Shown here in pieces: positions 41,100-57,989 of a stretch of 64,000 nt of DNA. The notes below the pieces were generated by a model. That model did not search any database, was not told the origin of the DNA, and saw only the letters and a program-made list of their open reading frames with translations. Numbering within the stretch: position 1 is the stretch's first letter; the number at the start of each line of letters is the position of its first letter. The stretch is from Streptomyces sp. NBC_01351 (GTDB lineage: Bacteria > Actinomycetota > Actinomycetes > Streptomycetales > Streptomycetaceae): the NCBI RefSeq assembly GCF_036237315.1, contig NZ_CP108356.1, positions 8,189,501 to 8,253,500 of the forward strand. Direction: 5' to 3'. The position numbers were made by a program, and so were the translations under genes.

Positions 41100-41339
41100 G
41101 CGTACCGGGAAGATCCCTGGACCAGGCCCTGGCGGCCCCAGACCAACGGCAAGGTCGAACGCTTCCACCGCACCCTGCTCGAGGAATGGGCCTGCCAACA
41201 GCCCTACGAATCAGACCGGCAACGCCAGCAAGCCTTCACCGACTGGATCGACTGGTACAACTACCACCGACCCCACACCGGCATCGCAGGCCAAACACCC
41301 GCCAGCCGCGTCACCAACCTGTCCGAACAACACACCTAG
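41100..41339 (+). pseudogene. IS481/IS3-type integrase-core C-terminal fragment
   Basis: RPWRPQTNGKVERFHRTLLE, EWACQQPYESDRQRQQAFTD and WYNYHRPHTGIAGQTPASRV form the end of an rve-type transposase, including the final catalytic Glu in GKVERFH. The first two catalytic acidic residues are absent. The TAG stop at 41337-41339 coincides with the stop region of the convergent UbiA-like gene. Confidence 0.75.
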
Positions 41340-42214: not shown

Positions 42215-42301
42215 GGGGTCACGCTATGCGGCGCCGCGCCCGGACTGCCGGATTTGTTACGAAGTGTCAGTTTCTTTCTCTCGTTTTCCTATGGTGAATC
42301 C

Positions 42302-43363
42302 ATGACACGTGTCCTGGCAGTGAGCAGCGTGTTCCCTCCCCATCGTCACCCGCAGGCCGAGATCACGGCAGCGCTGGCCCGCTTCCTGCCGGCCGGCGCG
42401 AACACTGCCCTCCTGCACCGGGTCCACGCCTCGGCACGCGTGGAGTACCGACACCTCGCGTTCCCCCTGGAGCGGTATGGGCCCTCGAACGACTTCGGCG
42501 CCACCAACGCGCTCTTCGTGCAGGCGGCCTTCGAACTCGGCACTCGGGCCCTCGAACTGGCCCTCGTCGAAGCCGGTCTGACAGCGCGGGAGCTCGACCT
42601 GGTCATGTCGACCACGGTGACCGGGCTCGCCACCCCCTCACTGGAGGCCCGCCTCGTCACCCGGGTGGGCCTGCGCCCCGACGTGAAGCGTCTGCCGCTC
42701 TTCGGACTCGGCTGCGCGGCGGGCGCCGCCGGTCTCGGCCACACCCACGACTATCTGTCGGGCCATCCGGACCACGCCGCCCTGCTGCTGTCCACCGAGC
42801 TCTGCTCGCTCACCTTGCAGTCCACCGACACCTCGATGGCGAACCTGGTGGCCGGCGCCCTCTTCGGCGACGGCGCCGGCGCCCTGATCGCCGTGGGCCG
42901 CGACCACCCGCTGCACGGCAACGCTCCCGGACCCGCCGTGGTGGCCTCGCGCAGCCGGCTCTACCCGGGCACCGAGCACCTGCTCGGCTGGGACATCGGC
43001 CACTGGGGTTTCCGCATGGTCCTCGGCCGCGAACTCCCCGACCTGGTCCGGCTGTACGTCGCCGAGGAGATCGAGAGCTTCCTCGCGGAGCACGACCTCA
43101 AGCCCGGCGACGTCGACGCGTGGATCTGCCATCCTGGCGGACCCAAGGTCCTCGACGTCCTCGAGGAGGCGCTGGCGCTCCCCGAGTCGGCCCTCGCCGC
43201 GAGCCGTCGCTCGCTGGCCTCGGTCGGCAACCTCTCCTCCGCCTCCGTCCTGCACATCCTGAGTGGCCTGCGGGAAGCAGGGCCGCCACCGCCCGGATCG
43301 GTCGGACTGATGCTCGCTTTCGGCCCGGGCTTCGCGTCCGAACTCGTCCTGCTGCGGTGGTGA
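42302..43363 (+). CDS. Type III polyketide synthase
   Basis: 353 residues with the chalcone-synthase-like thiolase fold. Catalytic Cys138 in LFGLGCAAGAAGLG, His277 in AWICHPGGPKVLD and Asn310 in SVGNLSSASVLH form the complete triad; GPGFASELVLL ends the protein. Bacterial enzymes of this type extend fatty acyl-CoA with malonyl or methylmalonyl-CoA to resorcinols, pyrones or related phenolic lipids. It leads a three-gene operon with a methyltransferase and a flavin hydroxylase, the same order as srsA-srsB-srsC of Streptomyces griseus. The next gene starts five bases after the stop. Confidence 0.95.
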   Translation: MTRVLAVSSVFPPHRHPQAEITAALARFLPAGANTALLHRVHASARVEYRHLAFPLERYGPSNDFGATNALFVQAAFELGTRALELALVEAGLTARELDLVMSTTVTGLATPSLEARLVTRVGLRPDVKRLPLFGLGCAAGAAGLGHTHDYLSGHPDHAALLLSTELCSLTLQSTDTSMANLVAGALFGDGAGALIAVGRDHPLHGNAPGPAVVASRSRLYPGTEHLLGWDIGHWGFRMVLGRELPDLVRLYVAEEIESFLAEHDLKPGDVDAWICHPGGPKVLDVLEEALALPESALAASRRSLASVGNLSSASVLHILSGLREAGPPPPGSVGLMLAFGPGFASELVLLRW

Positions 43364-43367
43364 CCCC

Positions 43368-43928
43368 ATGACCTGGTACCTGCTCCTCATCGGGCTCGTC
43401 GGCGCCGAGCGCCTCGCCGAGCTGGCCACGGCCCGCCGCCACACCAGGTGGAGCCTGGCGCGCGGCGGCGTCGAGTACGGCCGCGGCCACTATCCGGCGA
43501 TGGTCGCCCTGCACACCGCCCTGCTGGCGGGATGCGCGGTCGAACCCTGGGCCGCCGACCGCCCGTTCCTCCCCGCGCTCGGCTGGCCCGCCCTCGCCCT
43601 GGCCCTGGCCGCCCAGGCGCTTCGCTGGAGGTGCATCCACACCCTCGGACCTCGCTGGAACACCCGCGTGCTCGTCGTGCCCGGACTGCCTCTGGTCTCC
43701 TCCGGACCGTACCGGCTACTGCACCACCCCAACTACGTGGCGGTCGTACTGGAGGGGCTCGCGCTGCCGCTGGTGCACACCGCCTGGCTGACCGCGCTCG
43801 GCTTCACCATGCTCAACCTGGCACTGCTGCGCGTAAGGATCCGCTGCGAGGAGGCCGCCCTGGCCCAGGGAGGCGGGCTGCGCGCGCCCGCCTCCGTACC
43901 AGCGGCGACGACGGGCCCGGCCCGGTGA
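43368..43928 (+). CDS. Isoprenylcysteine carboxyl methyltransferase-like membrane enzyme
   Basis: 186 residues with four to five hydrophobic segments and the ICMT/PEMT-type SAM-binding region RVLVVPGLPLVSSGPYRLLH (approximate span; here TRVLVVPGLPLVSSGPYRLL) followed by HHPNYVAVVLEGLALPL, with RCEEAAL near the end. In srs-type loci the homologous protein (SrsB) O-methylates alkylresorcinols. It lies five bases after the PKS gene and overlaps the next gene by GTGA. A Glu/Arg pair and the HPNY motif typical of the family are intact. Confidence 0.9.
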   Translation: MTWYLLLIGLVGAERLAELATARRHTRWSLARGGVEYGRGHYPAMVALHTALLAGCAVEPWAADRPFLPALGWPALALALAAQALRWRCIHTLGPRWNTRVLVVPGLPLVSSGPYRLLHHPNYVAVVLEGLALPLVHTAWLTALGFTMLNLALLRVRIRCEEAALAQGGGLRAPASVPAATTGPAR

Positions 43929-44950
43929 TCGACCTGCTGATCGCGGGCGGCGGCCCGGCCGGGCTGGCCACCGCCATCCACGGCGCCCTGGCCGGGCTGG
44001 AGGTGGTGGTCGCGGAGCCCCGTCCCACCCCTATCGACAAGGCCTGCGGGGAGGGACTGATGCCCGGCGCGGTCCGCCGCCTCCTCGAGCTGGAGGTGCC
44101 CGTGGCGGGCCAGCCCTTTCACGGCATCCGCTACGTGGACGCAACGAGCGGCCGGCAGGCGGAGGGATTGTTCCGCCGCGGCCCGGGCCTCGGCGTCCGC
44201 CGGACCGCCCTCCAGGCCGCGCTGGCCGAACGCGCCGCCCGGCTCGGCGTACGGGTGGTCCCGCGCCGTGTGGCCGAGGTCCGCCAGGACGAGCACGGCG
44301 TCTACGCGTCGGGGTTCACCGCCCGCTACCTCGTGGCGGCAGACGGGCTGCACTCCACGGTCCGGCGCGGCATGGGCCTGGCCGCGCCGGACGTGGCCGG
44401 CCTCCCGGCGCGGTACGGCCTGCGGCGGCACTATGCCGTCGCGCCGTGGAGCGACCTCGTCGAGGTCCACTGGGCGGCGCACTGCGAGGCCTATGTCACC
44501 CCGCTGGCGCCCGACCGGATCGGTGTCGCCCTCCTGACCTCGGAGCACGCACCGTTCGACGTTCAACTCGCCGGCTTCCCCCTGCTGTCGGCGCGACTGC
44601 CCGCCGCTGCCGGGGCGGCGGTGCGCGGGGCCGGGCCGCTGCGCCAGGGCTCGCGGGTGCGGGTGGCGGGGCGCGTGCTCTTCGTGGGCGATGCCGCCGG
44701 GTACGTCGACGCGTTGACCGGTGAGGGCCTCACCCTGGCCGTGACCGCGGCCGGGGAATTGGTGCGTTGCGTACGGGCGGGGCGGCCGCAGGCGTACGAG
44801 CGAGCCTGGCGGGAGCTGTCGCGCAGCTATCGCACGCTCACCACGTCCCTCCTCTGGGCCCGCCACCAGCCTCCGCTCGCCCGCCGGATCGTCCCGGCGG
44901 CCGCCCGGCTCCCGCGCGTGTTCACGGGGGCGGTGAACCTGCTCGCGTGA
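43925..44950 (+). CDS. FAD-dependent aromatic hydroxylase (geranylgeranyl reductase/SrsC-like)
   Basis: 341 residues. N-terminal FAD fold IDLLIAGGGPAGLATAIHGA, a CGEGLMPGAVRRL block, the DG motif YLVAADGLHSTVRRGMGL, and the second FAD contact VLFVGDAAGYVDALTGEGL. These identify a group A flavin monooxygenase/reductase-like protein. In the srs pathway the counterpart hydroxylates the aromatic ring to a hydroquinone that oxidises to a quinone lipid. GTG 43925 overlaps the methyltransferase stop (GTGA), so the three genes form a coupled operon. Confidence 0.9.
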   Translation: MIDLLIAGGGPAGLATAIHGALAGLEVVVAEPRPTPIDKACGEGLMPGAVRRLLELEVPVAGQPFHGIRYVDATSGRQAEGLFRRGPGLGVRRTALQAALAERAARLGVRVVPRRVAEVRQDEHGVYASGFTARYLVAADGLHSTVRRGMGLAAPDVAGLPARYGLRRHYAVAPWSDLVEVHWAAHCEAYVTPLAPDRIGVALLTSEHAPFDVQLAGFPLLSARLPAAAGAAVRGAGPLRQGSRVRVAGRVLFVGDAAGYVDALTGEGLTLAVTAAGELVRCVRAGRPQAYERAWRELSRSYRTLTTSLLWARHQPPLARRIVPAAARLPRVFTGAVNLLA

Positions 44951-45494: not shown

Positions 45495-45734
45495 TCACGA
45501 GGCGGGAGATACGCGCCCCTCGATTCTGGAGAGGAGATCCTGGTGCCCGACGTCGTCGAGGGTGATGGCGTCGAGCGGGCGCAGGTAGGGGAGGTTGTCG
45601 CGGATCGGGTAGGCGCGCCGTAGGCGGGGGTTGTAGAGGAGTTCCTCTTCGGGGACGTGGACGAGCGGTCCCTTGTCCACCGGGCAGGCGAGGAGGGGGA
45701 GGAGGCGAGGGTCGGGCTCAGTGGGTGGTTGCAT
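45495..45734 (-). CDS. Trm112-family protein
   Basis: 79 residues: RLLPLLACPVDKGPLVHVPE, then LLYNPRLRRAYPIRDNLPYL with the conserved R-x-A-Y-P-I-R-x-x-I/L-P pattern of Trm112/YcaR-like proteins. Only one Cys of the usual zinc set is present, common in bacterial members, which are thought to assist methyltransferases or glycan enzymes. It overlaps the end of the EamA gene by 17 bases and is the last gene of the operon. Confidence 0.9.
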   Translation of the reverse strand: MQPPTEPDPRLLPLLACPVDKGPLVHVPEEELLYNPRLRRAYPIRDNLPYLRPLDAITLDDVGHQDLLSRIEGRVSPAS

Positions 45735-46653
45735 GGTGGGGTTCTCCTTGGTGGGTCGGCGCGGGTGACGGTTCGTCGTGGCGCGGAAGGGTGAGCAGGA
45801 CGACGACGGCGAGTGCGGTGCCGCCGAGGCGCAGCGCCAGCCGGAGTGGTTCGGTGGGGAGGTGTTCGTCGAACACCACGGTGCCCGCGATGACGGTGAA
45901 GATGCTGGACACGGTGGTGGTGACCGGGACGATCACGGAGGCGCGGCAGCGTTGGAGCGCGGTCTGGGACAGGGCCAGGCCGGCTGCTCCGGTGGCGATG
46001 AGCAGCCAAGGGTGGGGTCCACGCAGGAGATCGGGCAGGGCTGCCGCCACCGACCGGTCGGCGAGTGTGGCCGACGTGCCCTTGATGGCGAGCGAGCTCA
46101 CCCCGTACAGCAGCCCGAGGGCGACGCCGTACGGCACGCCGGAGCTGCTGCGGCGGTGCCGGCGGCCGGCCCGGCGCAGTGAGGCTAGGAACAGCAGGAG
46201 TCCGAAGGCGAGGCAGGGGAGGCAGACGGCGAGCAGGGGCAGGACGGGCGCCTGCGCTCCCACCCGGTTGCCTTCGGCGTCGCCGTCGCCGAGCGAGCCG
46301 ATGACGGCGAGCAGGGCGAGCAGGATGACGCCGGTGGCGAGGAGTTCTCGGCGGCCCGGGCGCTCGCCCAGTGCGGCGGCGGAGAGGGCGATCAGGAGCA
46401 CCGTCCCGGAGAGGAACACCCCCTGGGCGGCGGCGATCGGGAGCAGTTGGTAGACCTTCAGCTGGGCGCCGAAGCCCAGGCCCAGCACGGTGAAGCCCAG
46501 CAGCCAGCCGGGACTGGAGGCCAGCGCCCGGAGCAGGTGTAGCGGGCGGCGGGGGTCCAGTGCGGGGAGGGAGGCCAGTGCGCGCTTCTCGAGGACGAAG
46601 CCCGCGCTGTAGAGGGCGTTGGCGAGCAGGGCGACCGCGACGCCGAGGATCAT
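45718..46653 (-). CDS. EamA/DMT-family transporter
   Basis: 311 residues with about ten transmembrane helices in two similar halves, e.g. MILGVAVALLANALYSAGFV, VFLSGTVLLIALSAAALGER and SVIVPVTTTVSSIFTVIAGT, VVFDEHLP. In envelope-glycan loci such proteins can move lipid-linked sugars across the membrane; drug/metabolite export is the other possibility. Its ATG overlaps the stop of the condensation-domain gene (TGATGA region at 46650-46653), and its end overlaps the Trm112-like gene, so all are cotranscribed. Confidence 0.85.
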   Translation of the reverse strand: MILGVAVALLANALYSAGFVLEKRALASLPALDPRRPLHLLRALASSPGWLLGFTVLGLGFGAQLKVYQLLPIAAAQGVFLSGTVLLIALSAAALGERPGRRELLATGVILLALLAVIGSLGDGDAEGNRVGAQAPVLPLLAVCLPCLAFGLLLFLASLRRAGRRHRRSSSGVPYGVALGLLYGVSSLAIKGTSATLADRSVAAALPDLLRGPHPWLLIATGAAGLALSQTALQRCRASVIVPVTTTVSSIFTVIAGTVVFDEHLPTEPLRLALRLGGTALAVVVLLTLPRHDEPSPAPTHQGEPHHATTH

Positions 46654-47963
46654 CGGCGTCGTCCTTCCTCGGCCAGTGCGTCAAGGGTCTCGGCGCAGCG
46701 CCGGGCGAGCTCGGCGGCGGCGGATTGGTCGAGCAGCTGGTGGCAGTGGCGGACGGCGAGGTGGAGGCGGTCGTCGAGGGTGAGGGCGCTGACGGAGAGT
46801 CCGCGGGGCATCCGAACGGGTGCCGAGAACCACAGTGCGTCGGGCGGGCCTGCGGGGCCGAAGTCGAGCGGGTGGGTGACCCGGCCGATGTTGCTGACAA
46901 GGGCGGTGGACGTCCAGGGCGCGGCGACACGGCGCAGTGTCCTCGTCAGCGGGGCCTTGGCGCCGACGGGCAGCCAGGGGGTGCTGACCAGCCTGGCGAC
47001 GAGGCCGCCGCCGGTAACGGGGGCGGCCTTGGCGGCGCGGGTCTGCGCGCTGATCCGGCCCAGCAGCGCGGCGGCACCGGCGTCGGGGGCGGGTGTACCG
47101 GCTCGGATGGTTGTCAGGTGGTTGTGGTTGCCCATGGGGGCGCCGGGGGCGAGTGGTCCGTACGGGCGGTCGTCGATCGGCATCGACAGGTGGATCGGGC
47201 CGGTGGGGTGGTCGTGCCGGTGGTTCCACTCGGCCAGGGTCAGCTGAACCGCCGTCAAGAGCAGGTCGTTGACGGTCGGGCGGAGCCGGTCTGCGCCGGT
47301 CCGGGTGAGCGGGAGCACGCTGAGGTGGACACCGGTGCCAGGAGAGGGGCTTGCGGCGGGCGCGATGCGCACCGGTCGGCCTCCCCGGGCGGTGGCTGCG
47401 GTGGAGGCGTCGGCCGGACCGGCGGAGCGCTGCCGGGCCGGACCCGCGGAGCGTTCCCCGACCGGGGAGCCGGAGTAGTGGTCGGCGAGGTCGCAGAGCA
47501 GCCGAAGGCAGGTGCCGGCGTCCGCGAGGGTGTGCGCTGCCGTCAGGAGCAGGGCGGTGCCGCCGCCGGGTGCGGGTGCGGTCTCCAGCCGGAGTGGTGG
47601 GCCGGCCGCCAGCGGGGGCGGTTCGGTGAGGGCACGGTGGCGGGTGGTGCCCAGGTCGGCGGTGGCGGCCACGGCGGCGGGGTCGATCGGTGCCGGCTCC
47701 CAGTGGTAACGGCGGTGCCACCAGCGAGAGTCGGACTGCCGTACCTGGAGCGTCGGGTGGCCGGCCAGGGTCCGGGTGAAGGCGGCCCGGAGCCGCTCGA
47801 CGTCGACGGTGCCGGGGAGGTGGGCCTCCACGTGGACGGTGTCCGCGTCCAGGTGCTCTTGGAGCAGGTGGCGCGAGTACTCGTCCATCGCGGGGAAGGG
47901 GACGCGCCCCTGCCGCCCGGACGCGGTCCGGGCGGCAGGGGCGGCGAAGGACGGGCGGGTCAC
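46650..47963 (-). CDS. Condensation-domain (Pap/WES-like) acyltransferase
   Basis: 437 residues, CoA-dependent acyltransferase fold. The active-site region is ALLLTAAHTLADAGTCLRLL, a variant of HHxxxDG keeping the second His and the Asp but with Ala for Gly; DFGPAGPPDALWFSAPVRMP and the DxxxG-like C-terminal strand region LVSNIGRV are also family-like. Such proteins acylate sugars or lipids (PapA in mycobacteria) or condense peptides. GTG 47963 overlaps the AftD stop (GTGA), giving an N-terminus of ~25 residues before MDEYSRHLL. Inside this operon the likely role is acylation of a glycolipid or glycan. Confidence 0.85.
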   Translation of the reverse strand: MTRPSFAAPAARTASGRQGRVPFPAMDEYSRHLLQEHLDADTVHVEAHLPGTVDVERLRAAFTRTLAGHPTLQVRQSDSRWWHRRYHWEPAPIDPAAVAATADLGTTRHRALTEPPPLAAGPPLRLETAPAPGGGTALLLTAAHTLADAGTCLRLLCDLADHYSGSPVGERSAGPARQRSAGPADASTAATARGGRPVRIAPAASPSPGTGVHLSVLPLTRTGADRLRPTVNDLLLTAVQLTLAEWNHRHDHPTGPIHLSMPIDDRPYGPLAPGAPMGNHNHLTTIRAGTPAPDAGAAALLGRISAQTRAAKAAPVTGGGLVARLVSTPWLPVGAKAPLTRTLRRVAAPWTSTALVSNIGRVTHPLDFGPAGPPDALWFSAPVRMPRGLSVSALTLDDRLHLAVRHCHQLLDQSAAAELARRCAETLDALAEEGRRR

Positions 47964-50900
47964 GGAGCCTCGGCCCGGTGCCGGGGCACAGTGTCCTGGC
48001 CGCCCGCAGTGACCAGCGTGGCGGCGACTGCCAGCAGCGCGAGCACCTGGGCGGTCGGGGCGAACGCCCCGCTCGGGGGCGCGAGGACCGCAAGTAGACC
48101 GGCGGCGGCCATGGCCGCCCCGGCGACGTACGGCAGCAGGTTCGGCCACCGGAACGCGATCAGGACCAGCGGTAGCGCCAGCAGTGCGAGCGGACCGCCG
48201 ACGACGCCGAGGACCAGCAGCGGGAAGACGAGGCCGAGCAGCCACCGGGGCGCGTCGGCCGCGTCCCAGTCCTGCGCACCGGGGACGTCAGGTCCGCCGC
48301 TCCGCCGCCGCAGCGCCGGTACCACGACCAGCCCGGCGAGCACCAGGAGGGCGAGGCCGCCGAGGACGAGCCCGAGGTCGTACGTGGTGTCGGGGGCGTA
48401 GGAGAGCAGTACGGTTCCGCCGGCGCCCGCCGGGACCACGTAGCCCTGCTGCCAGCCGTCGAGTCGGACGGACTGCAGCGGCTTGCCGTTCAGGGTCGCG
48501 CGCCAGCCGGAGTTGGCGTTTTCGTGCACCTGGACGTAGGCGGCATCGCCCACGCCGATCCGTACCCTGCGCTCGTCTCCGGACCAGGACAGGACTTCCA
48601 CCGTCCGCCGCGAGCCGGGACCGGCGGCCGGGTTGGCGGCGCGAGTGGAGAGGGTGAGGTCGGTGACGGCCAGTGCGCCGTCGTCGGAGGCGGACACCCG
48701 GTGCTCGCCCTGACCGAGGGTCAGGGTGGGCTCGGTGGCCGGGCACAGGTTCACGGTGACGGGGTGCCGGTTCCGCAGGGAGGCGACCGTGCCGGACACG
48801 GAGGTCTGGTGGGCGACTCCGTCCACGGTGACGACCGGGCCCTTGCCGCACGGCAGAGTGAAGCCGGCGCCCTGGGTGTCCGGGGCCTCCTGGCGGATCA
48901 TCAGGTCGGCCAGGGCCGGGATGTGCACCTCGCTCAGGCCCGCTGGCAGCTGGAGGCTCTGCCCGGCGAGCGGGTTGTGGACGACGACGGGGGCGGTCGC
49001 GGTGACCGTGATCGTCAGCTGGTCGGTGGTCAGCGGGGCGAACCGGACCAGACCGTTGGCGTCCACCCCCGCGCTGACGGCGTCGGTCGGGGTGCTGAGC
49101 TGCACCTGGGTCGGCCGGGAGGAGAGACCACCGGCGGCACCGAGCACCAGCTGGTCGATGCTGCGGCTGCCCTGCCAGGCGAGGCGGACGGTGGGCTTGC
49201 CGCCCGCGATCCAGGCGGTGGTGAGGTCGCCGTCGAGCAGATTGCGTGGGCTGCCGGAGGTGGTGGATTCGGACTCGATGCCGATCCGCCCGGTGGCCCG
49301 GCCGGGGGCGACCTGGTCCAGCAGGGCGTCCAGAGCCGGGCCGGGTAGGGCGACGGCGCTGCCGGTGACCGTGAAGGCCCCGGCGTCGGTGGTGAGTTGA
49401 CGGTTGAGCCCGGTCTCGACGGTTCCCGACTGGGAGCCGCCGAGGTCGAGGGTGCGGTGCAGCGAGTAGGTGTCGGCCGTAGCAGCCGGGAGGGCCAGCA
49501 CACGGGTGGCCTTGACGCCGGGGATCGAGATCTCCGAGAACCCGGCCCCGCCCACGCCGGTGGCGGCGGTGACGGCGCCTTCGATGGTGATCTTGACCCA
49601 TGCGGCGGGCCCCGCCGGGGCGTTGACGGTCTGCGCGACGGCCTGCGGCTGCAGCACGCTCACCTGAGAGCCCCGGTCCGTGGTGATCCGCACCTTGGTG
49701 ATGGTGGGCCGCAGGGAACCCCCGGCCAGCGGGGTGACCTTGAGGGTCGCGGGGAGGTCCACCGACCCGTTGAAGTCGAGCCGCAGCCACTGGCCCACCG
49801 GGTCCGCGCTGCTGCCCTCAGCCCACGCCGTGCCGGAGTTCCCGTCGAAGGCCCCGACCGGGTCGTACTGCGGCAGGGCGAACAGCCAGGAGCCGTACGA
49901 GGAGGCGGAGACCGACTTGGCGCCCTCGATCACGGAGGTGGTCTGTTCGGCGGTGGAACCGGCCGGGCCCGAGGGCAGGATCTGCCGCGGCGCGCCGCCC
50001 GGGTCCTGGCCGGCGTCCGCCGGGTTGGTCTCGGTGGCTGTGTAGGTGTACGAGTTGTTGCCGTTGACCAAGCCGAAGAGCGTGTCGCCTCGGCGCTGCC
50101 CGTCGGCGGTGGCCCGCAGCGCGGCGCCGGTGCCGGATGGCAGGGGGTCGCCGGAGAGGATCACCGGACGGTCCGTCACCGTACCGCTCGCGGAGAGCTG
50201 GAGCAGCGACTCGGGGCCGCCGCTGACCACCGCGGTGTCGGCGACCGGGCGGGTGGTGACCCGGCCGGGTGCGGCGTCGCCCCCGGTGGGGGCGAAGATC
50301 TCCACCGCGTCGTACTGCCGGTACAGGCCCTGGACCTGGACCGGGGTGTCGGGCGGGAGCTGCCCGGAGGTTATGGGGGAGCCGAAGCCGGTCACCCGCT
50401 CGTAGCCGGAGGCCAGCAGGGTGGCGCGCACCGTCTGCGGCGGGATGTAGCCGGCCTGGGTGGGATCGAGGTCGTTGCGGACCACCAGGTGGTGCACGCC
50501 GGACCGCTCCAGGAAGGCGCGGAGCCCCGGCACCCGGGTGCCGGTCGTCAGCGCCTCCTGGATCGCCTCCAGGTAGCGTCGCTCGCCGGCCTGGCCGAAG
50601 GGCACGAAGTTGTACTGCGCCCATGGCGAGTCTGCCAGCACGTCGAGCGGCTCGTCGATGGTCGAGCCCCAGGTGTAGAGGCCGTGCGCGTCGGCGGGGA
50701 CCACCAGGGCCCGGCTGTCGGATGCTTTTGCGGTCAGGTAGGCGGCGGTCTGCTTCCACTGCGAGGGCAGCGCCTTGAAGGAGCCCGGCTGGACGATGTT
50801 GCCGTTCAGGTAGGGCAGCGCGAGGCCGGGCAGTACCGCGAGTGCGACCAGCGCCGGGACCAGCCGCGGTCGGGCGGCCACCCGGGGCAGTGGCCGGCCG

Positions 50901-52066
50901 CACAGGTGCGCCAGGCCCAGGGCCAGCGCCAGCGCGAGGCCGGTCTGGAACTTGTAGATGTTGCGCAGCGGCGCCAGCGCACCGTCGAGCAGCTGCTGCA
51001 CCGCACCGTGGAAGGGCGCCCCGAGGGAGCCGCCGTATCCGGCGAGGGTGATCAGCGTGACCGTGCCGACGACCAGCAGCAGCCAGCGCCGCTCGGGCAG
51101 GTCGCGGCGGGCGAGCCCGGCCAGGCCGAGCGCTGCTGCGAGCGCGGAGCAGGCGATCACCAGGACGTTCGCCGCGACGTCCCAGCCGGCGGGCAGCCAG
51201 GCCGAGCCGAAGTGCAGGTAGGCCACCCAGTTCCCGGCCCCGCGCAGCAGCTCGGTGGCGGACATGGTGGCAGTGGTGGTGGACGCCTGCTCGATGTAGC
51301 GCAGGAAGTCGGCGCCGTAGGAGTTGAGCAGTACCAGCGGCACGGCCCACCAGGCGGTGGCGAGCAGCACGCCGGGCACCCACCAGGCGATCAGGCGCCA
51401 CTTGCGGCTGCCCCCGGGCCGGCTGAGCAGGTAGAGCCCGACCGGAAGCAGTGAGGCCGCGACCGAGGTCGCGTTGACGCCGCCCATCAGCGGGATGACC
51501 AGTGCGGAGCGGAGTGCGGCGGCGCGCGCCGAGGCAAAGCGGGTGAGCGGCAGCAAAACCCAGGGCAGGACTGCGCCGGGCAGCGCGGCGGCGGAGGTGG
51601 AGCCGACCACGATGGTGAACACCGGCCACAGCGCGTAGCACGCCGCGCCGAGCAGCCGGCTCGGCCGGGTGCCGTACCCGAGGCGTTCGGCGAGCCGCAA
51701 CGCGCCCCAGAAGGCGGCGGTCACCACCAGCGACAGCCACAGCCGCTCCGCCAGCCAGACCGGCAGCTGGAGCAGATCGGTGATCAGGTAGTACGGCAGC
51801 ATCGGGAAGGCGTAGCCGACGTACTGGTTGGACAGACCGCCGAAGCTGCCCTCGCTCTGCCAGAGTGTTCCGAGCGAGCCGAGGAACCCGACCGGGTCGA
51901 GCGCGACGGCGAGTTTGGTGTCGAAGGCGATCCGTCCGGGTGCGGCAGCCAGGAAGGCGGACAGGACCAGCAGCCAGAAGACGGCGAGCCAGCGGCGGCC
52001 GATACGCGACTCGGGGCGCGGCCTCGAGGGCGGCGCGGCGGGGAGCTGCAGAGTGGGGGCGCTCAT
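47960..52066 (-). CDS. aftD: AftD-like alpha-(1->3)-arabinofuranosyltransferase
   Basis: 1368 residues, the size of mycobacterial AftD. N-terminal GT-C membrane domain with 11-13 helices (residues ~25-440), the usual GT-C acidic site early in the first external loop (APGRIAFDTKLAVALDPVGF), then a large extracellular region with several beta-sandwich, carbohydrate-binding-like modules (e.g. SASSYGSWLFALPQYDPVGA, NLLDGDLTTAWIAGGKPTVR, the discoidin-like 'FDGNSGTAWAEG' pattern), and C-terminal transmembrane helices (~1240-1350). AftD adds branching arabinofuranose to arabinogalactan/lipoarabinomannan in mycobacteria. It overlaps genes on both sides (ATGA and GTGA). Confidence 0.9.
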   Translation of the reverse strand: MSAPTLQLPAAPPSRPRPESRIGRRWLAVFWLLVLSAFLAAAPGRIAFDTKLAVALDPVGFLGSLGTLWQSEGSFGGLSNQYVGYAFPMLPYYLITDLLQLPVWLAERLWLSLVVTAAFWGALRLAERLGYGTRPSRLLGAACYALWPVFTIVVGSTSAAALPGAVLPWVLLPLTRFASARAAALRSALVIPLMGGVNATSVAASLLPVGLYLLSRPGGSRKWRLIAWWVPGVLLATAWWAVPLVLLNSYGADFLRYIEQASTTTATMSATELLRGAGNWVAYLHFGSAWLPAGWDVAANVLVIACSALAAALGLAGLARRDLPERRWLLLVVGTVTLITLAGYGGSLGAPFHGAVQQLLDGALAPLRNIYKFQTGLALALALGLAHLCGRPLPRVAARPRLVPALVALAVLPGLALPYLNGNIVQPGSFKALPSQWKQTAAYLTAKASDSRALVVPADAHGLYTWGSTIDEPLDVLADSPWAQYNFVPFGQAGERRYLEAIQEALTTGTRVPGLRAFLERSGVHHLVVRNDLDPTQAGYIPPQTVRATLLASGYERVTGFGSPITSGQLPPDTPVQVQGLYRQYDAVEIFAPTGGDAAPGRVTTRPVADTAVVSGGPESLLQLSASGTVTDRPVILSGDPLPSGTGAALRATADGQRRGDTLFGLVNGNNSYTYTATETNPADAGQDPGGAPRQILPSGPAGSTAEQTTSVIEGAKSVSASSYGSWLFALPQYDPVGAFDGNSGTAWAEGSSADPVGQWLRLDFNGSVDLPATLKVTPLAGGSLRPTITKVRITTDRGSQVSVLQPQAVAQTVNAPAGPAAWVKITIEGAVTAATGVGGAGFSEISIPGVKATRVLALPAATADTYSLHRTLDLGGSQSGTVETGLNRQLTTDAGAFTVTGSAVALPGPALDALLDQVAPGRATGRIGIESESTTSGSPRNLLDGDLTTAWIAGGKPTVRLAWQGSRSIDQLVLGAAGGLSSRPTQVQLSTPTDAVSAGVDANGLVRFAPLTTDQLTITVTATAPVVVHNPLAGQSLQLPAGLSEVHIPALADLMIRQEAPDTQGAGFTLPCGKGPVVTVDGVAHQTSVSGTVASLRNRHPVTVNLCPATEPTLTLGQGEHRVSASDDGALAVTDLTLSTRAANPAAGPGSRRTVEVLSWSGDERRVRIGVGDAAYVQVHENANSGWRATLNGKPLQSVRLDGWQQGYVVPAGAGGTVLLSYAPDTTYDLGLVLGGLALLVLAGLVVVPALRRRSGGPDVPGAQDWDAADAPRWLLGLVFPLLVLGVVGGPLALLALPLVLIAFRWPNLLPYVAGAAMAAAGLLAVLAPPSGAFAPTAQVLALLAVAATLVTAGGQDTVPRHRAEAP

Positions 52067-52794
52067 TCGGAGGTTCTCCGCATCACCAGGAGAAGATTCC
52101 AGGAAGCGATCTCGCGCAGGCCTGGAATACGGACGAGGGTCTCGGCCAGGAACGGCCAGTAGCGCGATCGTGCGGAAAGGATCTCGACATCGTCGCGCCC
52201 GCGTACGTGACGCAGCACCGGGCCGATGTGCACCCGGTGGAGGTTCTCGCCGAGGGTGTGCTTGGCACTGTGCCCGGTGCGCCGCTGGTAGCGGCGCCGG
52301 GCCCGGTCGGCGCCGAGCAGGTGCCAGGGCGAGGTCTCGTGGCCACCCCAGGGGGAGAACCAGTTGGTGTACGAGACGTACACCAGGCCGCCGGGGCGGG
52401 TGACCCGCACCATCTCGCTGATGAAGGTCGCCGGGTCCGGCACGTGCTCCAGCACGTTGGAGGAGAAGCAGACGTCGGCGGCGCCGTCGCTGAGCGGTAG
52501 CCAGTACCCGTCCGCGACGACCGCGTGGTCGGGTGGGAGTCCGCCGCGCGAGTGCAGCTCGGCAAGGTCCGGTTCGAAGAGGAAAGCGTGCGCGCCGCGG
52601 GCCCGGAACGCCTCGGTGAAGTGGCCGGCGGCGCCGCCGACGTCGGCCACCACCGCCCCTGCCAGGGGTGTGTACCGCTCGACCTGGTCGGCGGCGTCCT
52701 CGGCCAGCAACGAGTAGAACGTCTCCGGGTCGCTCTGCTCGCTACGGAAGGCGCGGAACAGCGCGAGGGAGCGTCGCAGAGAGGGGTCTTTCAC
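52063..52794 (-). CDS. SAM-dependent class I methyltransferase
   Basis: 243 residues. Motif I VVADVGGAAGHFTEAFRARG, acidic residue after the second strand in AFLFEPDLAEL, VCFSSNVLEHVPDPATFISE (motif around the UbiE/Methyltransf_11 type) and RPGGLVYVSYTNWFSPWGGH. Mycobacterial aftD regions carry a methyltransferase next to the GT (Rv0224c), to which this corresponds by position and type. GTG 52794 overlaps the GT4 stop (GTGA), and its stop overlaps the AftD start (ATGA). Confidence 0.9.
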   Translation of the reverse strand: MKDPSLRRSLALFRAFRSEQSDPETFYSLLAEDAADQVERYTPLAGAVVADVGGAAGHFTEAFRARGAHAFLFEPDLAELHSRGGLPPDHAVVADGYWLPLSDGAADVCFSSNVLEHVPDPATFISEMVRVTRPGGLVYVSYTNWFSPWGGHETSPWHLLGADRARRRYQRRTGHSAKHTLGENLHRVHIGPVLRHVRGRDDVEILSARSRYWPFLAETLVRIPGLREIASWNLLLVMRRTSE

Positions 52795-53990
52795 GAGCGC
52801 TCCGCCGTGGTCGGGGCCGGGGGCTCGGCCATGGTGCGTCCGGACCCGGCCCGCCCGGAGGAATGCAGGGCCACGGCCTCGGCGGCAGCGGCCTGGAAGC
52901 GGTCGACGCTGTGCTCCCAGGTGAACTGCTCCGCGTGGCGGCGGGCCGCCGCACCCATCGCGGCCCGGCGTTCGGCGGACAGCGCCAGCGCGCACCAAGC
53001 CGCCGCGAACCCGCTCTCCGCCCGGGCGAGCAGACCGGTGCGACCGTGGACGACGGAGTCCCGCAGGCCCGGAATCTCGAAGCCCACCGCGGGCGTGCCG
53101 CGGATGGCGGCCTCTGTGACCACCAGGCCCCACCCCTCCAGTGAGGAGGGGTGCAGCAGCAGCCAGCTCCGGCAGAGCAGCCGGTGCTTCTCGGCTTCGT
53201 CGACCCGCCCGGCGAAGACCACGTCGGGCCCGGCCTGCGCCTCCAAACGGTCCCGTTCCGGGCCGTCGCCGACGATGACCAGCTTGCCGCCGGTGATCGG
53301 GCGGACCCGCTCCCACAGGCGCAGCAGCAGGTCGATCCGCTTGTACTCCACCAGCCTGCCGACGGCGGTGAACAGCGGTTCGTCGGATTCGGGGAGCAGC
53401 GGCGCGGGGGCCTCGACCCCATTGGGAACGAGATGGATGCGGTCGGCCGGAACGCCGATCCGCGCCATCGCCTCGGCGGTGGAGGGGGACACCGCGACCA
53501 TCAGGCTGCGGCGGTGGGTCCGGGTCAGCGCCCGGTGTTCCAGCATCCGGCCGGCCCGGGCGACCGGTCCGGGCAGGCGCTGGTCCCAGAGATCGGTGTG
53601 CACGTGGTTGACAAGGCACATCACCGGTCCCCGGTGCCACAGCGGCGCCAGGTACGGGACGCCGTTGCAGACCTCGACCAGCAGGTCGGTCTCGCCGACG
53701 CTGCGGCTGAACGCGCCGGGGGTACGGAGGAAGTGGTCGTACGTGCCGCCGGAGGAGACCACGCGGTAGTTGCGGTCGACGGACGGTTCCGGGCCCCCGC
53801 AGAGCAGGGTGACCTCGTGCCCGCGATCGGCCAGTCCGGAGGACAGTCGGTCGATGAGCAGTTCGGATCCGCCGGCGGCGGGGTTGGCCAGGTCGCGCCA
53901 GGCGAGGACGGTGATCCGGCGTGGGGCCTCCGGCGACGGTCGCACGGCTGTGACGGCCGGAGGTGGGTGGGGGGATATCCGATGTGCCAT
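52791..53990 (-). CDS. GT4-family glycosyltransferase
   Basis: 399 residues with the GT-B fold: N-terminal acceptor domain with AWRDLANPAAGGSELLIDRL and EVTLLCGGPEP, then the nucleotide-sugar domain VGRLVEYKRIDLLLRLWERV, LVIVGDGPERDRLEAQAGPD and the E-x7-E motif SSLEGWGLVVTEAAIRGTPA. Cytosolic transfer of a sugar onto a lipid carrier or glycan is expected. It is the first gene of the overlapping five-gene unit, so the promoter lies in 53991-54257. Confidence 0.9.
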   Translation of the reverse strand: MAHRISPHPPPAVTAVRPSPEAPRRITVLAWRDLANPAAGGSELLIDRLSSGLADRGHEVTLLCGGPEPSVDRNYRVVSSGGTYDHFLRTPGAFSRSVGETDLLVEVCNGVPYLAPLWHRGPVMCLVNHVHTDLWDQRLPGPVARAGRMLEHRALTRTHRRSLMVAVSPSTAEAMARIGVPADRIHLVPNGVEAPAPLLPESDEPLFTAVGRLVEYKRIDLLLRLWERVRPITGGKLVIVGDGPERDRLEAQAGPDVVFAGRVDEAEKHRLLCRSWLLLHPSSLEGWGLVVTEAAIRGTPAVGFEIPGLRDSVVHGRTGLLARAESGFAAAWCALALSAERRAAMGAAARRHAEQFTWEHSVDRFQAAAAEAVALHSSGRAGSGRTMAEPPAPTTAERS

Positions 53991-54257
53991 GGGAGCTCCT
54001 GGGAGGGGCGGTGCTCAAGGCATTGAGGGCATTGAGGGCAGGGATATGCGGGGCGTGCAGGGTTCAGGGGACCGGGGGTGACCGGTGGGGCAGTCGCACG
54101 GGAGGGACCGGGGGATGTGCGTCTGGCGGCGCGCGGATGGCGCGCGCCGCCAGTCTGGGCTGTTGCTACCGCCCGGTACTACTCACCAAATTGCTAAATT
54201 CCCGTGGAGTTCACGTGGAATAGGTGAACGCTCTATCACTTCTGCGAGCGACGGGTC
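53991..54257. promoter_or_regulatory. Probable promoter region of the glycan operon
   Basis: A gene-free interval between the GT4 gene and the DUF3068 gene, both on the minus strand. It includes an A/T-rich patch at about 54175-54235, unusual for the window, and a tandem GGCATTGAG repeat near 54014-54040. I could not fix -35/-10 boxes. Confidence 0.4.
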
Positions 54258-55253
54258 TCACCGCGAGGAGCGACGGCGCAGCAGCACGCCCGCCGCCAGC
54301 AGGCACACGAGGCCCGCGACGCTGGCGGCGACGGGGGCGGTGGTGCCCACCAGATCCAGCTTGCGGGCGGCGGCCTGCGCGGTCCGCACCTGGCCGCCCC
54401 GGCTCTCCGCCGTCATGGTGAGATCCGCCCGCAGCAGGGCCAGCAGGTCAGGACCCTCCGCCGAGGTCCGCAGGGTCACCAGCGGTTGCGTACGGGCGTC
54501 CATCACGGTGCCGGTGACCGGGTCCACGACCACGCTGAATCCGCCGTTCGCGTAGTACCGGTCGGCGACGACCTGACTGCGATCGGCCAGTCCGAGCAGC
54601 TTGCCGGGGACCTGCTGGGTCCCGACCTTCGTCGCGGCGAGCACGGTCCCGTAGCGGTAGCCGGTCCGGCCGTTCACGGCCGCGGTGCCCTGGAAATCAA
54701 GGGTCACAGTGCCGCCCAGCGTGGAGTCCCAGTAGACGTACGGGCGCTTGGCCAGGCCGAACGGGAACTTCAGGTACGCCTCGCCGGAGAAGGCGGGGCT
54801 CTCGCCGTGCGAGTGCAGCGGCAGGTTGGTGCGGCGGTCGGTCACCCAGCGTTCCACCGTCCATTGGACGGACTTGCGCGGGTCGCGGAACTCGAGCGTG
54901 GCGGCGGTGTCGATCTGTGTGGAGATGTCCATGACCGCGCGGGTCGGGCCGCTCTGTGAGACGTTGCCCACCACCCGCCGGGTGAGCGTGAGCTCCTGGA
55001 CCGGGCTCACGGCGACGGACTTGGTGTCGAAGACGGTGCCACTGCCGGTGAAGACGGTGGTGGTCCTGGTGTCGATCGGCGTCTTGCGCAGGTTCGGCAG
55101 CGCGTACCAGTGCAGGAGCGGGGCCAGCACCAGGAGGAAGGCCGCGACGGCGGTCAGCACCAGGCCGGTGCGGGAGAGGCGCAGGGGAGCCGGAGCAGGT
55201 TCGGGGAGTTCCCCCGCGGGCTGGTCGAGGATCTGACCTGTGGGCACGGGCAT
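54258..55253 (-). CDS. DUF3068 family membrane-anchored protein (porin PorA-like family)
   Basis: 331 residues: an N-terminal transmembrane helix (LVLTAVAAFLLVLAPLLHWY), a long extracytoplasmic beta-rich domain (ERWVTDRRTNLPLHSHGESP, YLKFPFGLAKRPYVYWDSTL, YYANGGFSVVVDPVTGTVMD) and a C-terminal helix (VAASVAGLVCLLAAGVLLRR). The FPFGxxKxxYxYWD motif marks DUF3068, an actinobacterial family encoded near aftD in mycobacteria (Rv0227c, as I recall). Function unknown; it may form or guard an envelope structure. ATG 55253 has GGAG seven bases upstream. Confidence 0.9.
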   Translation of the reverse strand: MPVPTGQILDQPAGELPEPAPAPLRLSRTGLVLTAVAAFLLVLAPLLHWYALPNLRKTPIDTRTTTVFTGSGTVFDTKSVAVSPVQELTLTRRVVGNVSQSGPTRAVMDISTQIDTAATLEFRDPRKSVQWTVERWVTDRRTNLPLHSHGESPAFSGEAYLKFPFGLAKRPYVYWDSTLGGTVTLDFQGTAAVNGRTGYRYGTVLAATKVGTQQVPGKLLGLADRSQVVADRYYANGGFSVVVDPVTGTVMDARTQPLVTLRTSAEGPDLLALLRADLTMTAESRGGQVRTAQAAARKLDLVGTTAPVAASVAGLVCLLAAGVLLRRRSSR

Positions 55254-55513
55254 GATTACGCTCCGTAAGGGGTTGGGGTCGGCACAGACCGTGCGGTGCT
55301 GAAGGCAGTGGTGCGACGAAAGGTCCCCAACGGCTGCCGAAGGTGAGGCAGGCCCCGTGTACATCCCCTGAGCGCGGAACCGTAGGTCCCCCCTTGACGG
55401 ATTGTCAACGCCAGGGCAAAACTGTGCGGGCACGGGACCGGGCCGGTGCGAATGCTGTCGCCTGTCGTACCGCCCCGCTCGCTCGGGGCTCACGAAAGGG
55501 ACATTCCGCAGCC

Positions 55514-55660
55514 ATGCGTACCCGACGCCCCGTTCTCGCCATCGTCCTCACCGCCGCGACGGGGGCACTCCTTGCCATCGCCGCCGTACTCGGCCTGGTT
55601 GCCCTCACGACCGCCGCTCCCGTCCGACCCGACGTGCCGCTCGTCTCCTTCACAGGCTGA
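55514..55660 (+). CDS. Small exported/membrane peptide (DUF2613-like)
   Basis: 48 residues: basic start MRTRRP, one hydrophobic helix (VLAIVLTAATGALLAIAAVL plus GLVALTTAA), and a short external tail PVRPDVPLVSFTG. Length and layout recall DUF2613, the small secreted protein encoded beside aftD in mycobacteria (Rv0236A). AAAGGG lies about 12 bases before ATG 55514. It is followed by the PucR-type regulator after 30 bases, so both may be one transcript, divergent from DUF3068. Confidence 0.6.
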   Translation: MRTRRPVLAIVLTAATGALLAIAAVLGLVALTTAAPVRPDVPLVSFTG

Positions 55661-55690
55661 TCCCGACTCACTCCCAGGGAGGCTGCCCGT

Positions 55691-56995
55691 ATGAGCGTAC
55701 GAACCGAATTTGCCCCGGCTGCCGCGGCGCTGCGGTCGGCCTCCCTGTGGAGCACCGTCAGCGCCGCCGACACCGAGCGGTTCATCAGCCTCGCCTCCAA
55801 CGAGATCCCCACGCTCTCGCTCGAGGTGATGCAGCAGATCCACGCCCAGTTCCCGCAGGTCGTGGAGATCTTCGACGACCACGGTGTCTCGGGGGTCCTC
55901 ACTCGGATCAGGCTGGCCCTCGGCCCCTTCGTCGAGAGTGTCCGGGCGGCCGGCGGCCCGAAGATCGCGGGGGACGGCGCCGTACGCTTCCGCGAGGTCG
56001 CCGCCTCCCTCGACCGGTGCGAGACCCTGCCCGGACCGGCGCTCGACTTCATGCGTGCGGTCTACCGCTTCGGAGCCCGGGTGTCCTGGCGCAGACTCAC
56101 CGAGATCGCGGACGGAGTCGGGATCCCGCCCGCCGCGATGTACGAGCTAGCCGAGGCCGGCTTCGACTACATCGAAGCCCTCGTCGGCGAGGCCGCCTGG
56201 GACCAGCTCAGCAACGAGTCCCTGGCCGCCGGCGAACGGCTCCGCCGCCAGTGCCGCCTGGTCGGGCTGCTGCTGGCGGACCAGCCCACCGACCTTGAGG
56301 CGACGGCCCAGTACGCCGCCAACATCGGCTGGCGGCTCCCGGACACGGTTGCGATCGCAGTCCTCCACCGCAACGAGAACGTGCTCCTGCCGCCAGCACT
56401 CGGCGCCGGCGTCCTGCTCGACTGGGAGAGCGAGCAGCCCCGGCTGGTCGTCCCAGGCTCCGCACAGGCCGGCCGGGCTGACGCGCTGCGCCAGGCACTC
56501 CCGGGCTGGACCGGCGCGCTCGGGCCGACCGTACCGCTGGCCCAGGCGGCTCGCTCGTTGCACTGGGCGCAGACGGCGATCGGGCTCATCACGGCCGGGA
56601 TCCTGCCGTCCCGTGGTGTGCTCGACTGCTCCGAGCACACAACGGCACTGCTCCTGCTGCCCCCCGCCGAACTGATCGACGACATGGCCGCCGGTTGCCT
56701 CGCACCACTGGCCTCGTGCAGGCCGGGCCAGGCGGACCGGCTCGCGGACACGCTGCTGGCCTGGCTCCAGACCCGGGGCGGCGCGGCGGAAGTGGCGGCG
56801 CGGATCGGCGTCCACCCCCAGACGGTCCGCTACCGGATGCGCCAGCTCAGGGAGCTGTGGGGAGACGCGCTGGACGACCACGACCAGCGCTTCGCCCTGG
56901 AGCTGGTGCTCCGCGCCCGGAAGCTGCAGTCGCAGCTCTCGCCGGTCGGGCCGTTGCGCGATCTGGCGACGGGCCGTCAGGCGGGAGTCGAGTAG
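55691..56995 (+). CDS. PucR-family helix-turn-helix regulator
   Basis: 434 residues. The N-terminal ligand-type domain has LASNEIPTLSLEVMQQIHAQ and a central GGDEF-like/RsbRD-like part; the C-terminal PucR helix-turn-helix is LADTLLAWLQTRGGAAEVAA, RIGVHPQTVRYRMRQLRELW followed by RFALELVLRAR. Such CdaR/PucR regulators commonly activate neighbouring operons. Situated at the end of the glycan locus and divergent from DUF3068, it is a candidate local regulator. AGGGAGG before ATG 55691 supports the start. Confidence 0.9.
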   Translation: MSVRTEFAPAAAALRSASLWSTVSAADTERFISLASNEIPTLSLEVMQQIHAQFPQVVEIFDDHGVSGVLTRIRLALGPFVESVRAAGGPKIAGDGAVRFREVAASLDRCETLPGPALDFMRAVYRFGARVSWRRLTEIADGVGIPPAAMYELAEAGFDYIEALVGEAAWDQLSNESLAAGERLRRQCRLVGLLLADQPTDLEATAQYAANIGWRLPDTVAIAVLHRNENVLLPPALGAGVLLDWESEQPRLVVPGSAQAGRADALRQALPGWTGALGPTVPLAQAARSLHWAQTAIGLITAGILPSRGVLDCSEHTTALLLLPPAELIDDMAAGCLAPLASCRPGQADRLADTLLAWLQTRGGAAEVAARIGVHPQTVRYRMRQLRELWGDALDDHDQRFALELVLRARKLQSQLSPVGPLRDLATGRQAGVE

Positions 56996-57102: not shown

Positions 57103-57345
57103 GTGGGGCGTGACGACTGGACCGGGCCGCGGCGGCCTGTCGTGGTCCGGGTGTCGGGGGAGATGGACACGGACCGTGCCCAGGCGTTTCGCGCGGACCT
57201 CGCCGCGGCGATGGAGCGGGCGACCGGCGGCCGCGAGGTGGTCGTCGACCACTGACCTGTCCTTCTGCGACTCCTCAGGTCTCAACGTGCTCCTGGGTGT
57301 CCGCCTCTATGCCCAGCACGCCGGCCTGCTGGAGGTGACGGGGTG
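57103..57345 (+). pseudogene. Frameshifted STAS-domain gene
   Basis: GTG 57103 follows GGAGGAG. The frame gives VVVRVSGEMDTDRAQAFRAD and LAAAMERATGGREVVVD, then TGA at 57252-57254. The rest of a STAS domain, TDLSFCDSSGLNVLLGVRLY, AQHAGLLEVTG, is in another frame. The domain is also cut short about 57346 where IS21-type sequence begins. It is an inactive anti-anti-sigma gene. Confidence 0.65.
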
Positions 57346-57439
57346 ATCGACCTGTTCCCTATCGTTCCGGTCCCGCCGTTCTGACCCGCTCTATCGCGAT
57401 CCGGCATGTGCCGGACTCGGCGCGGCGGACGCCGGTGGG

Positions 57440-57989
57440 GCCGGTGCGCCGACCGGTGGGCATCAGCCGGCCAGCGCGACTGGAGCTTCCGTCTGGCCGT
57501 GAGGTGGACGTGGACATCCGTGAGGAACTCCCGCAGGGCGGTGAAGGCGGCCGCATAGGACTCCTCCGGCTCTCCGGCCTGGGACGGCAGAAGATCAGTA
57601 GCCGGGCGGAGCCGAATCCGGCGGTCGTTGTCCTGGCGATCCCACTGCTCGACCAGCAGATTCAGTTCCGCGAGGGTGTCCACCTGCGGGACGGGGACCA
57701 GGTGGTTTCTGCGGAACCAGCCGATCTGTCCCTCGACCCCGCCCTTCTCGTGGGCGCCCTCGATACCCGGGTGGCAGTAGAAACTGGTGATCGAATAGTG
57801 CGAGCGGAATGCGGTCCACCGCTCGGACTCCACCCGGCGGCGGGTCAGGCCCAGCACCTGGGCGACCGCCGCCCGCAAATTGTCGTAGCGGATCTTCCCG
57901 TACGGGACGCCACCAAGCGTGTTCAGCGCGTGGACATGGCCTTCGAGGAAAGCCTCCTGCCCGCAGGACGCGAAAATCTTTTTCTGCAC
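57440..57989 (-). pseudogene. IS21-family IstA transposase fragment
   Basis: MQKKIFASCGQEAFLEGHVH, NTLGGVPYGKIRYDNLRAAV, FYCHPGIEGAHEKGGVEGQI and WFRRNHLVPVP are the central integrase core of IS21 IstA (third catalytic acid in EKGGVEGQIGWFRRN). The frame continues in recognisable form to about 57470 (REFLTDVHVHL) before turning into unrelated sequence. N-terminal helix-turn-helix and the first catalytic Asp are missing. Confidence 0.75.

Follow-up and report, generated by a model that had tools for sequence, protein, structure and literature searches.

The window, the whole 64,000-nucleotide stretch of Streptomyces sp. NBC_01351 analyzed in this work (genome G000 in our sample), contains at 45495..56995 a locus of nine genes organized around a relative of AftD, a protein studied as part of the mycobacterial envelope machinery. 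The genes are listed below with their strand and the basis of their assignment.

52791..53990, minus strand: GT4 glycosyltransferase, with which the operon begins (Pfam Glycos_transf_1, 88.8 bits)
52063..52794, minus strand: class I methyltransferase (hereafter MT1), syntenic counterpart of MtrP/Rv0224c (Methyltransf_11, 55.4 bits)
47960..52066, minus strand: AftD-family GT-C protein of 1368 residues with a F5/8-type carbohydrate-binding domain (PF11847, 699.7 bits)
46650..47963, minus strand: predicted stand-alone condensation-fold acyltransferase (profile match to condensation domains of nonribosomal peptide synthetases, NRPS; structure model)
45718..46653, minus strand: EamA/NIPA-like multi-pass membrane protein, candidate flippase (EamA, 24.2 bits, cut-off 28.2)
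45495..45734, minus strand: small Trm112/YcaR-like protein, possible methyltransferase partner (Trm112p, 53.8 bits)
54258..55253, minus strand: DUF3068 (PorA/PgfA/LmcA) protein, upstream of the operon (NCBIfam PgfA, 235.4 bits; PorA/DUF3068, 203 bits)
55514..55660, plus strand: exported or membrane peptide of 48 residues (end of an open reading frame; conserved in the genus)
55691..56995, plus strand: PucR-type regulator, divergent from the operon (HTH_30, 61.8 bits)

The genes encoding the GT4, MT1, AftD, condensation and EamA-like proteins overlap by 4 bases at each junction and the Trm112-like gene overlaps the EamA-like one by 17 bases, such that the six minus-strand genes form one overlapping operon. 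The DUF3068 gene lies a short way upstream in the same orientation, and the peptide and PucR genes are divergent. An earlier reading of the stretch from its letters alone (the sequence-only reading) had listed these genes, five of them overlapping end to start, and all are present where it placed them. The proteins match the AftD, DUF3068, Trm112, GT4, methyltransferase, and PucR families of Pfam above the curated cut-offs, and the Condensation (PF00668; 15.2 bits, cut-off 30.6) and EamA families below them. We did not identify an acyltransferase 3 domain (the TmaT type) among the nine proteins with Pfam, nor any module family of polyketide synthases (PKS) or NRPS among the operon proteins, save the weak Condensation match.

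Judged by its sequence, the 1368-residue protein is a full-length relative of AftD and a member of its family. Its match to GT-C_AftD largely exceeds the cut-off (26 bits), the F5/8 type C domain scores 34.6 bits (cut-off 28.2), and the solved mycobacterial AftD (6W98) aligns with it over two segments, residues 20-849 and 905-1327 (440.6 bits). The similarity to AftD proposed from the letters thus extends over nearly the whole protein and is not restricted to generic GT-C features. Identity is 31-32% to four AftD proteins of the mycobacterial-type family (f4) and 93-95% to those of two named Streptomyces. An assignment of the protein to MmpA was rejected, the best blastp segment having 22 bits. 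Among 17 aligned AftD proteins, D/E49 (Asp in the window; one row, L036, begins after this position) and E259 are conserved, as are the binding-domain residues and two cysteines. D/E49, E259, and the acids of the DTKLD motif are what we take to be the putative active-site residues of AftD. The second Asp of DTKLD is replaced by Gly, Ala, or Pro in all 82 streptomycete and Embleya loci where the motif could be located (11 of 93 not located) and is kept in 24/24 of the other loci (4 of 28 not located), some genomes being counted twice in each of the two sets.

The DUF3068 protein passes the cut-off of the NCBIfam PgfA family (NF053601, 160 bits). Its AlphaFold model (mean predicted local distance difference test, pLDDT, of 89) has a beta-rich, beta-barrel ectodomain between two transmembrane helices, and its best match in the PDB is LmcA of Mycobacterium smegmatis (7SHW, E-value 1.5e-17, target TM-score 0.84), followed by CD36 and LIMP-2. 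The model therefore presents a CD36-like fold, and we regard the protein as a putative lipid binder. We know of no Streptomyces that makes trehalose monomycolate. Passages of PMC8972800 liken LmcA to CD36 and LIMP-2 and propose lipid binding, and passages of PMC9678360 place PgfA in the trafficking of trehalose monomycolate and question its orthology with the corynebacterial LmcA. The window genome has a second DUF3068 copy (L172 8802-9782; G000:C1:6308817; 258.9 bits against PF11271) in a stretch that looks unrelated, amid what appear by eye to be housekeeping genes, which offers no clue to a pathway.

We searched 296 genomes of the class, from 105 genera, including 31 of the window genus (g1, Streptomyces), at E-value thresholds of 1e-3 for AftD, DUF3068, and MmpA, 1e-20 for the condensation family, 1e-30 for DPPR synthase, and 1e-50 for DprE1. 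AftD was found in 150 genomes and 47 genera, and in 13 of the 31 congeners. In the other 12 AftD-positive congeners the order PucR, DUF3068, GT4, MT1, AftD is always the same. Where the fetched stretch extends that far, in 11 loci, AftD is followed by the condensation, EamA, and Trm112 genes; in the twelfth (G286), the condensation gene is at the start of another contig. These 11 loci also have a second methyltransferase (MT2), placed after the condensation gene and before EamA, and in 9 of them an FkbM methyltransferase comes after Trm112. The gene content described by the sequence-only reading is thus present, but it missed these two methyltransferases of most Streptomyces operons, which are lacking in the window and in its two nearest relatives (L092, L093). 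The operon of Embleya has the same order, with MT2 and FkbM.

Searching named genomes with the condensation-protein alignment, we obtained 276 relatives and examined the best 80, all in named Streptomyces. None of these 80 loci has a differing gene order, which excludes a chance arrangement. EamA is present in 79 of them, Trm112 and MT2 in 78, GT4, MT1, and AftD in 76, PucR and DUF3068 in 72, and FkbM in 68. The absences not caused by the end of a contig are those of MT2 in L092 and L093, DUF3068 in L122 and L165, PucR in L162 and L165, and EamA in L162; the others occur where contig ends cut the locus, a check that was not applied to FkbM. Three of the 80 have a match to acyltransferase 3 past the distal end of the operon. 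In the trees of AftD and of MT1 alike, the genus and f4 form separate clades, which fits vertical descent with some loss.

The association of AftD with DUF3068 extends across the class: 126 genomes have both, 24 only AftD, 20 only DUF3068 (146 in total), and 126 neither. As the sequence-only reading had suggested mapping, the two genes are syntenic elsewhere, being at most 25 kb apart in 87 of the 94 genomes outside the genus with positions for both. Among the seven remaining genomes, two (G112, G201) gave only a paralogue, their linked copy being known, and five (G077, G158, G241, G243, G265) have the genes on different contigs. In the eight loci of families other than the genus and f4 (L024-L031), a GT4 is near AftD in 8, DUF3068 in 7, and MT1 in 6. 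GT4 proteins are 64-71% identical to that of the window in 12/12 loci of the genus and 31-39% identical near AftD in other families, and MT1 is 44-45% identical to the methyltransferase of three f4 loci (L033, L038, L040). These linkages across families bear out the view that the GT4, methyltransferase, and DUF3068 genes are syntenic counterparts of mycobacterial ones. DUF3068 also occurs in 10 of the 18 AftD-negative congeners.

The alignment profile of the condensation protein matches NRPS condensation domains (E-value 6e-8), and its model, of low confidence (pLDDT 64), matches such domains and PapA5 (1Q9J) with an E-value of 8e-15. His144 and Asp148 of the HxxxD motif are kept and the following Gly is replaced by Ala, giving AHTLADA where most relatives have NHTALDG; among the fetched loci the altered type occurs outside the window only in L092 and L093. 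The protein of a congener matches the acyl_WS_DGAT family at 43.8 bits, below the curated cut-off. The condensation-domain enzyme of the sequence-only reading thus holds in outline, as a probable member of the acyltransferase fold, which its predicted fold and its co-occurrence with AftD suggest; its score against PF00668 does not reach that family's cut-off. The condensation family is present in 34 genomes of the class: all 13 AftD-positive congeners, none of the 18 AftD-negative ones, and 21 genomes of family f16. In 14 of the 17 f16 genomes with a position for AftD it is within 10 kb of it, and in the other three the genes are on different contigs.

The condensation family and MmpA (NF053599, described as a trehalose-mycolate delivery protein) do not occur together in any of the AftD-positive genomes. 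MmpA was found in 115 of the 296 genomes (111 over the family cut-off, 4 under), with no match in the window genome, in its genus, or in any f1 genome. Among the 150 genomes with AftD, 108 have MmpA, 34 have the condensation family, none has both, and eight have neither (seven f16 genomes and G227, where the AftD match is weak). The genus and the single f16 row make up one side of the AftD tree, and the split thus represents one or few evolutionary switches. In Nonomuraea gerenzanensis, a streptosporangial organism whose 11.8 Mb record is labelled a plasmid, tblastn revealed the order MmpA-GT4-AftD-acyltransferase 3-DUF3068 (L174 5241-14247). To our knowledge, Nonomuraea are not known for mycolic acids. 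The class-wide matches and this locus contradict the statement, in passages of PMC8698533, that MmpA has no homology outside corynebacteria and mycobacteria.

Two small genes complete the locus. We rejected a tie between the Trm112-like gene and MT2, as Trm112 is retained in three loci that lack MT2 (the window, L092, and L093). Between PucR and DUF3068, a peptide-like open reading frame of membrane type with a PNxPL-like tail is found in 78 of 83 Streptomyces loci (at least two genomes being present twice), so the 48-residue frame of the window is very likely a gene. It matches no Pfam family up to an E-value of 0.1. The sequence-only reading had paired this peptide with the mycobacterial DUF2613 peptide, an identification that we rejected: three f4 peptides match PF11021 (DUF2613), the window peptide does not, three congener peptides have no match up to an E-value of 10, and a profile match between peptide and family (83% probability) covers mainly the membrane helix.

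The best-known relatives of the locus are those of corynebacteria and mycobacteria. Passages of PMC7775120 give the order in Corynebacterium glutamicum as AftD, a hypothetical protein, TmaT, two membrane proteins, a glycosyltransferase, a hypothetical protein, and MtrP. From their place, the two membrane proteins are NCgl2760 (Rv0227c; LmcA in passages of PMC8972800) and NCgl2761 (MmpA), described in parts of PMC8698533, where loss of TmaT, MmpA, or MtrP impairs the maturation and transport of trehalose corynomycolates and loss of NCgl2760 impairs lipomannan and lipoarabinomannan. Our searches for a described Streptomyces AftD system listed none among open-license PMC papers, and nothing for DUF3367; in passages of PMC2610374, PMC2440535, and PMC2157549, Streptomyces is named only for a resistance marker or in a reference title.

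Taken together, we lean with modest assurance towards the view that the operon is a streptomycete, mycolate-free version of the aftD-tmaT-lmcA-mmpA-GT4-mtrP locus, and that it produces an acylated glycolipid or lipoglycan for export. The chemistry is inferred from families, folds, synteny, and co-occurrence. The GT4 would act on the cytoplasmic side, glycosylating a membrane lipid, and MT1 would methylate the intermediate. The condensation-fold enzyme, in place of TmaT/MmpA, would then transfer an acyl group to the glycolipid, where TmaT acts in corynebacteria, which is the plain inference. The EamA-like protein would flip the product or the sugar donor, and on the outer side AftD, a GT-C protein with carbohydrate-binding domains, would add a sugar supplied on polyprenyl phosphate. 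The DUF3068 protein, with its CD36-like fold, would carry the lipid outside the membrane, and PucR would regulate the operon. A bolder thought concerns the cytoplasmic side of AftD, which according to passages of PMC12041299 has a surface binding acyl carrier protein: this surface might pair with condensation enzymes, which take acyl chains from such carriers.

Several points weigh against the interpretation of the operon as a mycolate-free glycolipid locus. AftD most likely uses a non-arabinose or other lipid-linked donor, but the identity of the donor is a guess, as is the assignment of the EamA-like protein as a flippase, and the reactions, sugar, acyl chain, and acceptor are conjectural. 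The model of the condensation protein is of low confidence and the motif of the window protein is altered. DUF3068 is missing from 19 of the 28 AftD-positive f16 genomes, and the split between MmpA and the condensation family is largely the effect of one clade, not 142 independent events. Finally, AftD is positively associated across the class with the pair of DprE1 and DPPR synthase, which is present in 68 of 150 AftD-positive genomes (82 lack it) and 34 of 146 AftD-negative ones (p = 8e-5; p = 0.08 when f4 is left out, and 0.04 when the genus is left out as well), and some genomes of f15 and f22 (G074, G224, G248, G099) have these donor genes next to AftD, which speaks for an arabinose donor in them.

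One alternative, which we consider unlikely, is a specialized-metabolite cluster making a secreted acylated and methylated glycoside, with an EamA-like exporter and PucR as pathway regulator. The patchy presence of AftD in the genus, the condensation fold, the Trm112-like protein, the additional methyltransferases of relatives, and the type III PKS gene group adjoining the operon all fit such a cluster. However, the GT4-methyltransferase-AftD-DUF3068 core is common to envelope loci across the class, the best 80 of the 276 named loci have a single gene order, module families are lacking from the operon apart from the weak Condensation match, and the fold of the DUF3068 protein is that of a putative lipid binder. 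The adjoining group, at 41336-44950, has a UbiA prenyltransferase, a chalcone/stilbene-synthase-like type III PKS, an ICMT methyltransferase, and a flavin adenine dinucleotide (FAD) oxidoreductase side by side, and has the look of a cluster for a phenolic lipid or a meroterpenoid. We rejected the possibility that its UbiA gene (41336-42214) encodes DPPR synthase (24 bits; a search of the whole genome gave no match to DPPR synthase either).

It is more doubtful still that AftD is a non-catalytic membrane scaffold anchoring other enzymes, as passages of PMC8698533 suggest for MmpA, a partial AftD homologue. The loop after the first helix is changed in Streptomycetaceae and the second Asp is absent from every motif located there and in Embleya, in line with such a role, but the conservation of D/E49, E259, the binding-domain residues, and the two cysteines argues against it.

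An arabinan locus proper, with AftD transferring arabinofuranose from decaprenyl-phosphoryl-arabinose and with an acylated glycan, along the lines of the sequence-only reading (which called the product unclear), is very improbable despite the near full-length homology of AftD, the class-wide association, and the neighboring donor genes of f15 and f22, since the window genome has no DPPR synthase match at an E-value of 1e-5, only DprE1 matches of at most 48 bits, and no Emb that the search could find (other enzymes of the arabinogalactan and lipoarabinomannan pathways were not searched for), and since DTKLD lacks its second Asp. The queries for DprE1 and DPPR synthase came from an f4 genome, picked by eye in its emb region. 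Within the genus the pair shows no association with AftD (5/13 AftD-positive against 8/18 AftD-negative genomes, p = 1), and in two AftD-positive congeners (G035, G187) a DprE1 relative is present but no clear DPPR synthase. Among AftD-positive genomes of other families, the pair is in 27/27 of f4, 22/27 of f15, 5/20 of f22, 1/28 of f16, 0/14 of f17, and 0/6 of f28; in G128 and G288 the thresholds used give a match to DPPR synthase but none to DprE1. In the f15 and f22 genomes where the pair adjoins AftD, AftD may be an arabinosyltransferase, a role that may have been changed or lost in Streptomyces. Since the known pathway to the arabinose donor was not found in the window genome, AftD there probably does something other than make arabinan, though the genome may have an alternative route to the donor.

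DprE1 and a relative of DPPR synthase are adjacent in 13 of the 31 congeners (e.g., G050, G278, G246), 5 with AftD and 8 without, which suggests that a polyprenyl-linked arabinose may serve some other purpose in certain Streptomyces. In L031 (998-1909) and further f15 loci, such as those of genomes G074 and G132, a second DUF3068 gene adjoins this pair.

Two other features of the window lie outside the operon. At 57282-57989 (minus strand), beside PucR, there is what appears by eye to be a fragment of an IS21-type transposase, without a Pfam match at 1e-5, and at 33510-35234 (minus strand) a PAP2 phosphatase is fused to a diacylglycerol-kinase-type domain with a YegS C-terminus.

A broader idea, which we hold tentatively and would not bet on, is that AftD is at heart no arabinosyltransferase and instead forms the GT-C core of an ancient machine for envelope glycolipids in actinobacteria, one that depends on neither arabinan nor mycolates and exists in two mutually exclusive types. 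The first would use MmpA, in some loci with an acyltransferase 3 (e.g., Nonomuraea and mycobacteria), and the second a condensation-fold acyltransferase (Streptomyces, Embleya, and f16), Corynebacteriales having recruited the first for trehalose mycolates and lipoarabinomannan. AftD, PgfA/LmcA, MmpA, and MtrP have been studied as parts of the mycolate and arabinan envelope of mycobacteria, and our results suggest that their present functional labels may describe a derived use. Genomes that encode this machinery and in which the donor pathway was not found provide a genetically simple and non-pathogenic setting to learn the roles of these proteins.

The comparison with known systems can be made gene by gene. 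The window AftD shares with the mycobacterial enzyme (6W98) near full-length homology, the F5/8-type binding domain, and the residues D/E49 and E259, but in the streptomycete sequences DTKLD is changed to DTKL followed by Ala, Gly, or Pro, and searches of its host genome gave no DprE1, DPPR synthase, or Emb. The DUF3068 protein resembles LmcA/PgfA of M. smegmatis (7SHW, 7N3V) in passing the PgfA cut-off, in its fold, and in its arrangement of an ectodomain between transmembrane helices, although it is only about 20% identical. The condensation protein shares the predicted fold and the His and Asp of HxxxD with the superfamily of PapA5, WS/DGAT, and NRPS condensation domains, but stands alone and scores below the curated cut-offs. 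We rejected AtsA of Actinoplanes as an instance of this system (13% identity with TmaT according to passages of PMC11064477). Finally, as in the C. glutamicum and mycobacterial aftD-tmaT-lmcA-mmpA-GT4-mtrP locus (cg3161-cg3168), AftD, DUF3068 (LmcA/PgfA), a GT4, and a methyltransferase are found together in one locus. Unlike that locus, the Streptomyces operon lacks MmpA, TmaT (acyltransferase 3), and DUF2613, and adds a condensation-fold protein, an EamA-like and a Trm112-like protein, a PucR regulator, and a different peptide.

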